Part shown: positions 33,526-37,012 of the stretch, piece by piece
Position numbering within the stretch: position 1 is the stretch's first letter
Layout: the number at the start of each line of letters is the position of its first letter
DNA from: Rhodococcus yananensis
GTDB lineage: Bacteria > Actinomycetota > Actinomycetes > Mycobacteriales > Mycobacteriaceae
Reading direction: 5' to 3'
DNA length: 37,100 nucleotides
NCBI RefSeq assembly: GCF_020515525.1
Contig: NZ_JAIYEP010000044.1
Coordinates: 1 to 37,100 of the forward strand
Notes under the pieces: model-generated
Seen by the model: the letters and a program-made list of their open reading frames with translations, nothing else
Database searches by the model: none
What the model was told of the DNA's origin: nothing
Translations under genes and position numbers: made by a program

Positions 33526-35121
33526 TCACCGCGTCGGCCGCCGCCACCCGCGGCGCAGCCATCCGCCCCGCGCATCGCCGAGCGCGATCCGTGCGGCGCT
33601 GCGTCCGCTCGCGCCCGAGACACCACCGCCGGGATGGGTCGACGCTCCCGTCAGGTACAGCCGGTCCGCGCCCGGGACGCGATGACCGGCGAGTTCGGGT
33701 GCCGGTCGCCAGAAGAACATCTGATCGAGCGACATCTCGACGTGCATCACGTTTCCGCCGATCATCCCGAGTTCCCGCTCGATGTCGACCGGTGTCTGCG
33801 TGTGGACGTGGCGGACATCGGAGGAGAATCCCGGAGCCCACGTGTCCATCTCCCGGAGGATCCGGTCGGTCTCCGACTTCGCCACCGCGGCCCAGTCGCG
33901 GCCGCCGGAGAGCCGATGGGGATACCACTGCGACCACAGGGTGACCTGGTGTTCCCCCGCGGGGGCGATCGACGGGTCGAGCGCGGTGAAGCTCATCGCG
34001 AGCACGGCCGGTTCGGGGGGAAGATCACCGGCGAGCGCGGATCCGTGTGCGCGCCTCAACCGGGCCCGGTCGTCGACGAGCAACTGCAGTCCGGTGGTGT
34101 CGCCGCCGTCGCCGGGGGCACCGCGATAGCGCGGCAGCGACCCCGTGGCCAAGCGGAGCACCATGCCGATTCCCGGGCCCACCCGGATGCGGCGCCGCCA
34201 CGTCTCGAGCGTCGCGTGGTCGAAACCGCCGCGTTCGAGCAGGTCGAGTGTGGTGAGGATGTGACATCCCGCTGTCACGGTGCGGGCGGAGACCACGCGT
34301 CCCGATTCGGTGAGCACCGACCAGTGGTCACCCGCGCGGCGGATGGCGGTGACGGAGTCACCGCACGTGACGGTCCCCCCGTCGGATTCGAGGCGGGAGG
34401 CGAGGGCCCGGGTGAGGGCACCGCTGCCGCCGACGGCGCGTCCCGGCGGCAGCGTGTGCATGAGGGCCGCGAACCCGACCATCGGTGCGGTGCCGGGTTC
34501 GGACATCGGCGGGCCCGACTGGGCGCCGAACCACGCGAGGGCGGCCTTGAGCGGTTCGTCGTCGAAGTACTCGTCGAGGAGCGCATCACCGGTGGTGAGG
34601 AACGCGCTGGACAGGGCGAGGCCACCGCCGTCGGCATCCAGTCCCCAGAACGAGGACAACAGGTGCCGACCCGTGGGCTCGGCGGTGAACGACTTCATCA
34701 CCGCGGCGCTGCGCGGAGCCCAGTCCGCGACGAACCGGCGGTAGGCGTCGGCGTCCCGCGTCCCGCACGCGGCCTCGATCGACGCGCACGTGCGGTCGAG
34801 ATCGCGGTGGAAGACGATGCCGGGGCGGTCGCTGCCCTGCGGGGACGGGGCGAAGGCCCACGGGTCGCAGTCCAGGTACCGCAGGCCGTGCGCGCCCAGA
34901 TCGAGTTCCTCGACGATCCCGGAGTGGCGGATCATGATGTGGGCGGATGAACCGCGATCGACCGCGTGCCCGGGGAACCGTTCGACGGTGGAGACCGCGC
35001 CGCCGAGGACGGTGTCGCGTTCGAGGACCTCGACGGACCAGCCCTCGCGAGCCAGATAGCACGCGGCGACGAGAGCGTTGTGCCCGGAACCGACGACCAC
35101 CGCGTCGAGGACGCTGCTCAT
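33526..35121 (-). CDS. crtO: CrtO-type carotenoid ketolase (FAD-dependent, CrtI-like)
   Basis: 531 residues. N-terminal FAD-binding VLDAVVVGSGHNALVAACYL followed by EVLERDTVLGGAVST. The middle part includes PGTAPMVGFAALMHTLPPG and GGSGALTRALASRLESDGG, and the C-terminus YLTGASTHPGGGVSGASGRS. This pattern (GSGHN, GGA, STHPGGG) separates CrtO/CruO ketolases from phytoene desaturases. CrtO adds a 4-keto group to a beta-ionone ring. A related amine-oxidase-fold dehydrogenase cannot be fully excluded, but the position next to cruF and the GT supports the call. ATG 35121 overlaps the GNAT stop as ATGA. Confidence 0.85.
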   Translation of the reverse strand: MSSVLDAVVVGSGHNALVAACYLAREGWSVEVLERDTVLGGAVSTVERFPGHAVDRGSSAHIMIRHSGIVEELDLGAHGLRYLDCDPWAFAPSPQGSDRPGIVFHRDLDRTCASIEAACGTRDADAYRRFVADWAPRSAAVMKSFTAEPTGRHLLSSFWGLDADGGGLALSSAFLTTGDALLDEYFDDEPLKAALAWFGAQSGPPMSEPGTAPMVGFAALMHTLPPGRAVGGSGALTRALASRLESDGGTVTCGDSVTAIRRAGDHWSVLTESGRVVSARTVTAGCHILTTLDLLERGGFDHATLETWRRRIRVGPGIGMVLRLATGSLPRYRGAPGDGGDTTGLQLLVDDRARLRRAHGSALAGDLPPEPAVLAMSFTALDPSIAPAGEHQVTLWSQWYPHRLSGGRDWAAVAKSETDRILREMDTWAPGFSSDVRHVHTQTPVDIERELGMIGGNVMHVEMSLDQMFFWRPAPELAGHRVPGADRLYLTGASTHPGGGVSGASGRSAARIALGDARGGWLRRGWRRPTR

Positions 35122-35747
35122 CGCGGTACCTCCGACCGGCCGGACGAGGGATCGGGATCGAGGGGGAGGCGGCGTCCGAGGACCGCGAACGCGCGGGCGT
35201 CGCCGGTGAAGACGAACCGTCGCACGACGTCTTCGAACCCGGCGCGTCGGTACAGGCGCCACGCCCGGTTGTCCTCCTCGGGGACCTCGGGTGTCGACAG
35301 CAGGACGGTGCGTTCGGTGCGGTCGTGCAGAAGCCGCCGCAGCAGGGCCTCACCGATTCCGTGACCCTGCGCCTCGGGATGCACGTGCAGTTCGGTCAGC
35401 TCGAAGTAGTCGTCGAGGATCTCGTCGATCCGGTCGGAGGGGAGGCCGACGTGCCGCATACCGGTCCGCACCTGTTGGTTCCACCACTGGTGGGGGTTCC
35501 CCCGGTAGCCGTAGGCGATGCCCACGGGTGTGCCGGGAGCATCGGGCAGCGCGGCCGCGACGGCTTTCCATCCGCTCCGGCCGGCGTGCTCGGACCACAT
35601 CGGTGCCCGGTGGTGCTCGGTGCCGCGCGGGTAACGCATCGCGGTGACGTAGATGGACAGGAGTGCGGGTAGGTGTGCCCGGAAGTCGGCCGGGGTCAGG
35701 TCGAAGAGGATCGGTTTCGCGACGTACCGATTCGGGTCCGTGCTCAT
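35118..35747 (-). CDS. GNAT family N-acetyltransferase (Rv2170-like)
   Basis: 209 residues. The acetyl-CoA pyrophosphate loop is in ELHVHPEAQGHGIGEALLRR (QGHGIG), with the following helix and NRAWRLYRRAGFEDVVRRFVF as motif B. The N-terminal half (PILFDLTPADFRAHLPALLS, then MRYPRGTEHHRAPMWSEHAG) is the substrate side. M. tuberculosis Rv2170, next to lppM there, has been reported as a protein lysine acetyltransferase acting on isocitrate dehydrogenase; transfer of that function is inference. First gene of the minus-strand operon GNAT-crtO-cruF-lppM-GT. Its promoter region faces the SOS box. ATG 35747 is preferred because it gives the usual length. Confidence 0.88.
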   Translation of the reverse strand: MSTDPNRYVAKPILFDLTPADFRAHLPALLSIYVTAMRYPRGTEHHRAPMWSEHAGRSGWKAVAAALPDAPGTPVGIAYGYRGNPHQWWNQQVRTGMRHVGLPSDRIDEILDDYFELTELHVHPEAQGHGIGEALLRRLLHDRTERTVLLSTPEVPEEDNRAWRLYRRAGFEDVVRRFVFTGDARAFAVLGRRLPLDPDPSSGRSEVPR

Positions 35748-35770
35748 GTGGGGACGGAGACCGCCTTCCC

Positions 35771-35801
35771 TTGACGACGTGTCGGTGGGTGCAGGTATAT
35801 T
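35771..35801 (+). promoter_or_regulatory. Plus-strand promoter TTGACG / TATATT
   Basis: -35 TTGACG at 35771-35776 and -10 TATATT at 35796-35801, spacer 19 bp; one of the best sigma-70-like promoters in the window. The transcription start would be near 35808, directly at the SOS box, and transcription would run toward the HEPN gene. Confidence 0.6.
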
Positions 35802-35808
35802 GAATACG

Positions 35809-35824
35809 TCGAACGCATGTTCGA
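35809..35824. promoter_or_regulatory. Perfect SOS box (LexA operator)
   Basis: TCGAACGCATGTTCGA, a perfect match to the actinobacterial LexA consensus TCGAAC-N4-GTTCGA. It lies at +1 to about +17 of the plus-strand promoter, an ideal place for repression, and within the divergent region in front of the GNAT-crtO operon. Confidence 0.8.
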
Positions 35825-35885
35825 TGTCGGGTATCCGGGGGGATGGCCGAGGGAAGCGGCCATCCCCCCGGATCTCACCGGGTGA
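35817..35885 (+). other. Possible 22-codon leader ORF across the hairpin
   Basis: ATG 35817 opens a 22-codon frame that ends at TGA 35883-35885 and spans the whole hairpin. No ribosome binding site; the ATG would lie about 9 nt from the predicted transcription start. Unproven. Confidence 0.15.
35833..35873 (+). terminator. Perfect 16-bp hairpin in the leader of the HEPN gene
   Basis: ATCCGGGGGGATGGCC (35833-35848) pairs completely with GGCCATCCCCCCGGAT (35858-35873) around a 9-nt loop. It starts about 25 nt after the predicted transcription start and 59 bp before the HEPN start codon. It could be an attenuator, a terminator for a short RNA, or a stable 5' structure. No U-run follows. Confidence 0.6.
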
Positions 35886-35931
35886 AGTCGCGCCGGCCCA
35901 CGACGCGACCGGAGAGTGAGGGGGATGCGAT

Positions 35932-36408
35932 ATGACCTCGCGAAGCATCGCGGGTTCCGGGGGCGTCGCCGGTTCCGGGATACGGCGCGCGACCGGGGCG
36001 TGTGGGGGTCGGCCCGTGTCCGCCCGAGCCTCGACGTTGCTGCGTCGCGCCGACGCCCTGTTGTCCGATGCGGTCGGCGCCGAACCGGCCGAACGGTTTC
36101 GCCTGGCGTACCTCGCCGCGCTGCGTGGCGCCGGTGCGGTCGTCGCGGCAGCCGAACTGGGTGCTCCGCGGCCGCCTCGGCGTCCCGCGACCCGCAACGC
36201 GTGGGTCCTGATGGCCCGCGCCGCCGACGACTTCGCGGGTTGGGCCGACTTCTTCGCCGACCGGTCCGCCGTGCGAGCGCAGGTGGAGGCGGGTGTTGCG
36301 CGAGTCGTCGATGCGGGAGAAGCCGATCGGTTCTTCGGTGAGGTCGGCCGCTTTCTCGGCGACGTGGAGCGGTACATCGCGGCCGACGAAGTATCGTCGA
36401 ACGGGTGA
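35932..36408 (+). CDS. SAV_6107-family HEPN-fold protein
   Basis: 158 residues, mostly helical: VSARASTLLRRADALLSDAV, FRLAYLAALRGAGAVVAAAE, NAWVLMARAADDFAGWADFF and RFFGEVGRFLGDVERYIAAD. This pattern fits the SAV_6107 family assigned to the HEPN fold and found widely near the mraZ/dcw region of actinobacteria. The protein contains no His at all, so the R-x4-6-H catalytic motif of HEPN RNases is absent and enzymatic RNase activity is unlikely. ATG 35932 follows a GAGGGGG ribosome binding site. It is driven by the promoter with the SOS box, with the hairpin in its leader. Function unknown. Confidence 0.82.
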   Translation: MTSRSIAGSGGVAGSGIRRATGACGGRPVSARASTLLRRADALLSDAVGAEPAERFRLAYLAALRGAGAVVAAAELGAPRPPRRPATRNAWVLMARAADDFAGWADFFADRSAVRAQVEAGVARVVDAGEADRFFGEVGRFLGDVERYIAADEVSSNG

Positions 36409-36580: not shown

Positions 36581-37012
36581 GTGCCACTCTCCGAGCACGA
36601 GCAGCGCATGCTCGAACAGATCGAGAGCGCGCTCTATGCTGAGGATCCCAAGTTCGCCTCGACCGTCCGCGGAAGCCGGTTGGGGATAGCGTCGAACCGG
36701 CGGCGGTTTCAGGCCGGCGCGCTGTTCGTCTTGGGTTTGACATTGCTCATCGCGGGAGTTGCGCTTCCGCTCAAGCCGGGTGGGTTCCCGGTCATCAGCT
36801 TGCTCGGGTTCCTCGTGATGTTCGGTGCGGGAGTCCTGTTGCTGGTGGGCGGTCGCGGACGCGCCGCGTCGCATTCGGGGTCGGCGGGTGCCGACGCTCC
36901 GAAGGGTGGTTCCGCGTCCTCGCGGGACCGGAAGCACAGCCAGAAGAAGCAGTCGGGCGGATTCACCCACCGGATGGAGGAGCGATTCCGGCGGCGGTTC
37001 GAACAGGGCTGA
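36581..37012 (+). CDS. DUF3040 domain membrane protein (Rv2169c-like)
   Basis: 143 residues. The N-terminal cytoplasmic motif PLSEHEQRMLEQIESALYAE followed by DPKFASTVRG is the DUF3040 signature. Two adjacent membrane helices follow (AGALFVLGLTLLIAGVALPL and ISLLGFLVMFGAGVLLLVGG), then a basic, Ser/Gly-rich tail. GTG 36581 with GGGAGG 4 nt upstream. DUF3040 genes typically lie just before mraZ and the cell division (dcw) cluster, which would be expected to the right of this window. Function unknown; an envelope or division role is inferred from context. Confidence 0.9.
   Translation: MPLSEHEQRMLEQIESALYAEDPKFASTVRGSRLGIASNRRRFQAGALFVLGLTLLIAGVALPLKPGGFPVISLLGFLVMFGAGVLLLVGGRGRAASHSGSAGADAPKGGSASSRDRKHSQKKQSGGFTHRMEERFRRRFEQG

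Follow-up and report, generated by a model that had tools for sequence, protein, structure and literature searches.

The promoter of the SAV_6107-type HEPN gene in the analysed DNA (the whole stretch of 37,100 nucleotides, hereafter the window) is very probably a composite damage switch, at which PafBC would activate and LexA would repress transcription, and which is followed by a hairpin in the leader. The sites, their conservation, their orientation and their near-fixed spacing are observed directly, as are the genes for LexA and the adjacent pafA-pafB-pafC genes in the same genome; from these we infer binding by PafBC and LexA and induction of the gene in the host. Coordinates are given in Table 1.

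Table 1. Features of the HEPN promoter region and of the neighbouring genes (positions in the window).
Feature	Positions	Strand	Evidence and remarks
TTGACG, possible -35, 19-nt spacer	35771..35776	+	present in only part of the relatives
PafBC / RecA-NDp motif TGTCGGTG-N8-TATATT, -10 at 35796-35801	35780..35801	+	perfect match
LexA operator (SOS box) TCGAACGCATGTTCGA	35809..35824	.	no mismatch; coincides with the predicted transcription start for HEPN
Leader hairpin, 17-bp stem, loop AGGGAAG at 35850-35856	35833..35873	+	folding, covariation; R2 match 35838-35868
SAV_6107-type HEPN gene	35932..36408	+	PF18726, 93.5 bits vs curated cut-off 27.2, E 1.2e-26
GNAT acetyltransferase gene, divergent from HEPN	35118..35747	-	start codon 35747 is the author's choice
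CrtO-like carotenoid oxidoreductase gene, adjoins GNAT	33526..35121	-	neighbour, outside the damage promoter
DUF3040 / SCO2097-family gene	36602..37012	+	neighbour

The gene identities proposed in the earlier note (HEPN_SAV_6107, GNAT, crtO, cruF and lppM) were borne out, the minus-strand genes beside HEPN being assigned by domain and family matches as GNAT, CrtO-like, CruF-like and LppM. The FAD enzyme was nearest to CrtO and the carotenoid-synthesis protein nearest to CruF, and both are named only as "-like" because they score below the NCBIfam curated cut-offs. A few bases are common to the GNAT and CrtO-like genes. The true start of the HEPN gene is uncertain, since its first ~28 residues are without counterpart in the aligned relatives. 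In R. ruber the gene order is HEPN, DUF3040, MraZ, MraW, which places HEPN just before mraZ-mraW of the division/cell-wall cluster.

The SOS box was confirmed as the exact match to the actinobacterial operator that had been claimed for it. A single perfect TCGAACNNNNGTTCGA palindrome is present in the window, where shuffles predict 0.02; the 4.25 Mb genome contains three, and the reversed control pattern was found there 0 times. When up to two mismatches were allowed, 909 box sites per strand were counted in the genome against 75 for the reversed control; weak sites therefore say little, and only near-perfect ones count. Boxes with one and two mismatches lie 5' of this genome's lexA, whose product has a LexA DNA-binding domain and an S24 domain, so this type of operator is probably in use in the genome.

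Of 61 family genomes sampled, 59 carry PF18726, and each of the 59 loci was inspected. Within the 500 nt that precede the HEPN domain, the best site was perfect in 34 loci, within one mismatch in 47 and within two in 52, and elsewhere within these loci only two sites in all had at most one mismatch. Seven loci are box-less by the 500-nt rule (L061-L064, L068, L070 and L072), with a two-mismatch site 492 nt away in L072 when 700 nt are allowed. Conservation of the box upstream of HEPN in relatives, named as a check in the earlier note, was thus found in 52 of 59 family loci (at most two mismatches). With regard to operator membership, the site combines the TCGAACNNNNGTTCGA palindrome, overlap with the predicted start and conservation 5' of the same gene. 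Across the class, PF18726 was present in 171 of 246 genomes (7 of them in the family), and other families were sampled with 69 of 164 genomes, comprising the 30 best-scoring and 39 chosen for family spread. Within 500 nt, the best site in these 69 loci had no mismatch in 27, one in 6, two in 12 and three or more in 24, leaving 36 loci with no box within one mismatch; with 27 of 69 perfect, the association of the box with HEPN is old, not universal.

The promoter described earlier as TTGACG-19-TATATT has its elements as stated, and the description was incomplete in that it missed a PafBC motif on the same -10. A sigma-70 scan of 35600-36000, which allows only 16-18 nt spacers, called no promoter. 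The PafBC motif of M. tuberculosis is given, in the accessible part of the source, as TGTCGG (or TGTCAG, TGTCAC)-N10-TANNNT, with direction being important (PMC8151990). A search for the form TGTCRG-N10-TANNNT on the HEPN strand of the 59 family loci (190,889 positions) gave 34 perfect matches in as many of the 52 boxed loci, all lying at the box against 0.20 expected. The motif starts 29 nt before the box in 25 loci, 30 nt in 7 and 40 nt in 2; 24 loci match the stricter TGTCRGTG form perfectly. This near-fixed distance in 34 of 52 loci makes control by an activator and a repressor on one promoter probable. When the 52 loci were aligned on the box (including L073 and L074, whose two-mismatch sites may be due to chance), the columns best conserved beyond it were, on the HEPN strand, those of the -10 TATATT and of the GAA that succeeds it; a TGTCGG block was conserved more weakly. 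In a set of 11 named loci, partly overlapping the family set and with the incomplete L258 left out, the seven Rhodococcus loci all have a perfect box, a PafBC motif (at most one mismatch) and a hairpin 22 nt past the box; a box together with a hairpin is seen in one of the three non-Rhodococcus loci, and the other two show only the box (1 and 2 mismatches).

A conserved stretch, CAACCTCCGCRA, was observed between box and hairpin in seven loci (L025, L026, L032, L033, L049, L054 and L056), six of which have no PafBC motif (L033 has one), and in none of the other 251 loci. It may be an additional element of the leader or a regulator site.

Damage induction of the HEPN gene, as predicted in the earlier note, is well supported by the conserved box, by the directional promoter and by cg2381 of C. 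glutamicum, the orthology of which is drawn from synteny. PF18726 is present in C. glutamicum, used here as a control genome, and the HEPN-DUF3040-MraZ-MraW order of R. ruber matches the location of cg2381 near mraZ (cg2378), so that cg2381 is the probable ortholog of HEPN. Jochmann 2009 is reportedly the cited source for the inclusion of cg2381 in the LexA regulon. In C. glutamicum treated with ciprofloxacin, cg2381 was up by 3.86 log2 and was named as a LexA-regulon gene, according to the portion of the report available (PMC5055667). LexA control of the HEPN gene is, through this orthology, probably already known in C. glutamicum.

Between the box and HEPN, 38 of the 59 family loci carry a hairpin, with GAGGGAAGC at its tip in 35 and a close variant in 3; seven of the hairpins were added to this set by hand. 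All 38 are in boxed loci, and the hairpin is missing from 14 of the 52 boxed loci, from the 7 box-less loci and from all 69 loci of other families. Its absence from the 14 boxed and 69 other-family loci indicates that it is not needed for HEPN function. In the window, the folding z-score for 35800-35945 was -4.8. Two models were built from the 38 hairpins, R1 from 33 and R2 from 30, with five identical 31-mers and the three variant-loop hairpins (L048, L052 and L055) left out of R2.

Covariation was assessed on the alignment A2, the rows of which were chosen by AGGGAAGC and a G-C closing pair, so that the loop and the innermost pair are constant by selection. In the remaining, unselected stem (30 distinct hairpins), 87.2% of cells were paired against 62.9% in shuffles, and the cells changed on both sides numbered 98 against 32.1 +/- 4.8, the shuffles ignoring the relatedness of the sequences. 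Changes on both sides affected 10 of 12 stem pairs, a count reached by 18 of 500 shuffles. The covariation score was 0.645, compared with 0.182 in shuffles and 0.09-0.23 with slid partners, and, apart from the count of pairs changed on both sides, the four measures used were reached by 0 of 500 shuffles. Stems differ even inside the window's own genus (L031 versus L018). It is strongly supported that the hairpin is an RNA structure under selection.

Two further roles for the leader were considered and set aside. An upstream open frame, of 22 codons from an ATG in the box, is at odds with the varying frame of the loop and with the many boxes without ATG, and pairing of the loop with the downstream mRNA showed no excess, the longest match averaging 2.1 compared with 3.2 for shuffled sequences.

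The hairpin could act as a terminator or attenuator, so that most damage transcripts would end early as a short SOS RNA and some would reach HEPN. The stem is very stable, and at L166 (and L168, by likeness) a degenerate box and hairpin have no evident same-strand gene downstream, both of which would suit such a role. The intrinsic terminator test, however, gave neither a T-run nor a terminator call, and a conserved loop on a stem of free sequence is not expected of a terminator; we regard early termination as unlikely. Our preferred guess is instead that a protein bound to the loop would tune the stability or translation of damage-induced mRNAs.

The earlier note had also suggested that the GNAT-crtO-cruF-lppM genes might respond to damage; this proved weakly supported, as the proximity of the box to the GNAT start favours it and conservation and motif direction speak against it. 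In its full form, LexA would repress both HEPN and the GNAT-crtO-cruF-lppM operon from a two-way operator, and damage would alter pigments. In 45 of the 52 boxed loci, 30-84 nt separate the box from the extrapolated GNAT start, a gap in which a GNAT promoter would overlap the box, so that LexA might affect GNAT incidentally. Divergent GNAT is also the neighbour of HEPN in 59 of 59 family loci, with a crtO homologue beside GNAT in 49 of 59. Yet GNAT and HEPN stay divergent without a box in 7 of the 59 loci, and the GNAT-crtO-HEPN order is kept in three of these (L062-L064), which indicates that the crtO-GNAT neighbourhood is stable on its own. In genus g29, HEPN_SAV_6107 was not found in any of the 13 genomes among those listed, and GNAT is kept without a box in 6 of 6 genomes checked (best sites with 3-4 mismatches). 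In other families the GNAT query matched at 4 of 69 loci, two of them with a perfect box, and 25 of 27 perfect boxes had no GNAT match within ~1.5 kb, a search by which diverged GNATs could be missed. The PafBC motif is directed at HEPN only, and no gene of cg2382-cg2390 appears in the ciprofloxacin table of changes >1 log2 for C. glutamicum (PMC5055667, as far as the source was available). LexA control of GNAT in its own right is doubtful, and the two-way operator with its effect on pigments is distinctly improbable.

Control by LexA only, in which the TGTCGG motif would have arisen by chance within a conserved spacer and PafBC would be inactive at this promoter, would agree with the 18 of 52 boxed loci from which the PafBC motif is absent. 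It is hard to reconcile with the near-fixed spacing of the motif in the other 34, and with the window's own genome, where 14 perfect TGTCRGTG-N8-TANNNT motifs were found (the window's included; reversed control 0), three of them at the recA, uvrA and SRAP genes. The same genome holds the Pup-ligase gene pafA, followed by adjacent genes for PafB- and PafC-type WYL proteins, the latter with a Pfam HTH; the motif in the direction of the gene and the encoded PafB and PafC are two of the marks of a PafBC promoter, and we consider LexA-only control very unlikely. One other comparable arrangement was observed among the 14 motifs, at L230 (G000:C58:2515), where a two-mismatch LexA-like box lies at +31. 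The genome's own recA (L223) contains a LAGLIDADG endonuclease domain inside its open frame, and RecA therefore probably carries an intein.

Under the composite switch, which we prefer, LexA would sit on the start site and PafBC would be inactive in the absence of damage. Upon damage, PafBC would activate through TGTCGG-N10-TATATT while LexA leaves, giving a sharp two-key induction; with activation by PafBC and repression by LexA, strong expression would need both damage pathways. The transcript would start with a leader holding the long hairpin with the AGGGAAG loop.

A search of the 61 whole family genomes with R2 gave 48 sites at E <= 0.1 in 38 genomes, 35 of them at HEPN and 13 elsewhere. 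It is most improbable that the inverted repeat, in place of being an RNA structure, serves as a DNA target of a dimeric regulator or is a mobile repeat. Protein binding to the DNA is conceivable for every long inverted repeat, and some genomes hold extra copies, but the stem sequence is not conserved and nevertheless covaries, all 38 hairpins are on the side of the box that is transcribed, and the match at E <= 0.1 is single in the window's genome and in 30 of the 38 matching genomes, and so is not a spreading repeat. Seven of the 13 non-HEPN sites have the exact loop, and five of these seven also have a box within two mismatches; the best LexA-like sites, 25-37 nt before the R2 match, have 0, 0, 0, 1, 2, 3 and 3 mismatches, with two pairs of close homologues among them (L166/L168, three mismatches each, and L169/L173, perfect). 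In the remaining six copies, neither the exact loop nor a box with at most two mismatches is present, and one of them, L210, has a three-mismatch site, so that three mismatches alone prove little. Box and loop at a distance of 20-50 nt were found in 87 of 351 family genomes, with 0 for the reversed control.

In genus g21, box and AGGGAAG hairpin were observed together in four genomes (L169, L173, L186 and L187). In L169 and L173 they lie away from HEPN and before an MFS transporter gene (by Pfam in L169, by likeness in L173), and in L186 there is no MFS frame just downstream. The sampled HEPN loci of this genus (L065 and L069) have the box and lack the hairpin; box and hairpin seem to be re-used as a unit in g21. 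In genus g14, L166 and L168 have a three-mismatch LexA-like site, a -10-like TATCAT just after it and then the hairpin, with an SRAP-like gene upstream in L166 (by eye); this element could be a small SOS RNA. Further copies of box and hairpin are found on short contigs, namely G050:C2 (L183 and L206, the latter near a large helicase-like gene), G024:C42/C43 (L171, L182, L207 and L213) and G041:C2 (L167 and L208), which are perhaps plasmids or other mobile DNA.

Searches beyond these sets yielded no further credible copies. Among 148 sampled genomes of the class, two outside the family matched at E <= 0.01; a stable GGGAAG hairpin was missing from their loci, and these matches were ascribed to chance, as were ten R1 matches in the window's genome beyond the window (E 0.09 to 8), which had no GGGAAG hairpin with a box within two mismatches. 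A phage origin of box and hairpin was also rejected, with 0 matches in viral contigs. On these searches the hairpin is, as far as sampled, specific to the family, located mostly at HEPN and usually SOS-linked elsewhere.

The active site of HEPN ribonucleases is R-X4-6-H, and this motif was not conserved, by eye, in 20 aligned sequences. The catalytic motif of the SAV_6107 family is likewise listed as not conserved in the available part of the family account (PMC3710099). Without a catalytic motif, the HEPN protein is less likely to cleave RNA than to bind RNA or protein, and binding to nucleic acid or protein is its probable mode of action. A sequence search for relatives of solved structure gave one weak match (2hsb, E 0.15), which was set aside.

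These results bring into the DNA-damage response a HEPN protein that is uncharacterised, conserved widely among actinobacteria and probably controlled by two pathways at once, and the leader hairpin, which is supported by covariation, coupled to SOS boxes and without Rfam match, is directly testable. If the hairpin controls the fate of the mRNA, it would add to the actinobacterial SOS response a post-transcriptional layer of a kind not met in the literature searched, as far as its text was available. A more far-reaching reading, offered only as speculation and with little confidence, is that the AGGGAAG hairpin represents a new class of damage-leader RNA, the loop of which would be bound by a protein (perhaps HEPN itself) as a post-transcriptional layer of SOS, and which would be re-used at other SOS promoters, e.g. 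that of the MFS gene. In the accessible open-licence literature, no paper was found that ties the SAV_6107 HEPN to PafBC or describes the leader hairpin, and the word HEPN is absent from the main text of the S. venezuelae LexA paper.

The hairpin resembles the structured leaders of Rfam in being a hairpin in a 5' leader with a conserved loop, and differs from them in having no match at the gathering score (Rfam 15; 0 matches in 17 relatives, and all window matches sub-threshold). The protein is a member of the HEPN-M (SAV_6107) family by Pfam score and shares its non-conserved catalytic motif; the family account, in its available part, is without a link to damage (PMC3710099), whereas a probable damage promoter is the feature here. 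The C. glutamicum LexA regulon has in common with the present system the probable HEPN ortholog cg2381, a LexA-regulon gene induced by ciprofloxacin (PMC5055667, available part), and it differs in that neither a PafBC motif nor the hairpin was seen in three sampled loci (L071, L073 and L074) of the small-genome genus g3, which we took to be Corynebacterium. Several genes are described as carrying both PafBC and LexA motifs, with recA under both pathways (PMC8223512, accessible text), and the motif TGTCGG-N10-TANNNT is the same, so that dual control by PafBC and LexA is of a known kind. In the genome's own recA, a one-mismatch box lies 87 nt from the motif; at the HEPN promoter the box lies on the predicted start site of the PafBC core, and what stands out is the placement of both sites on one core promoter with near-fixed spacing across genera.
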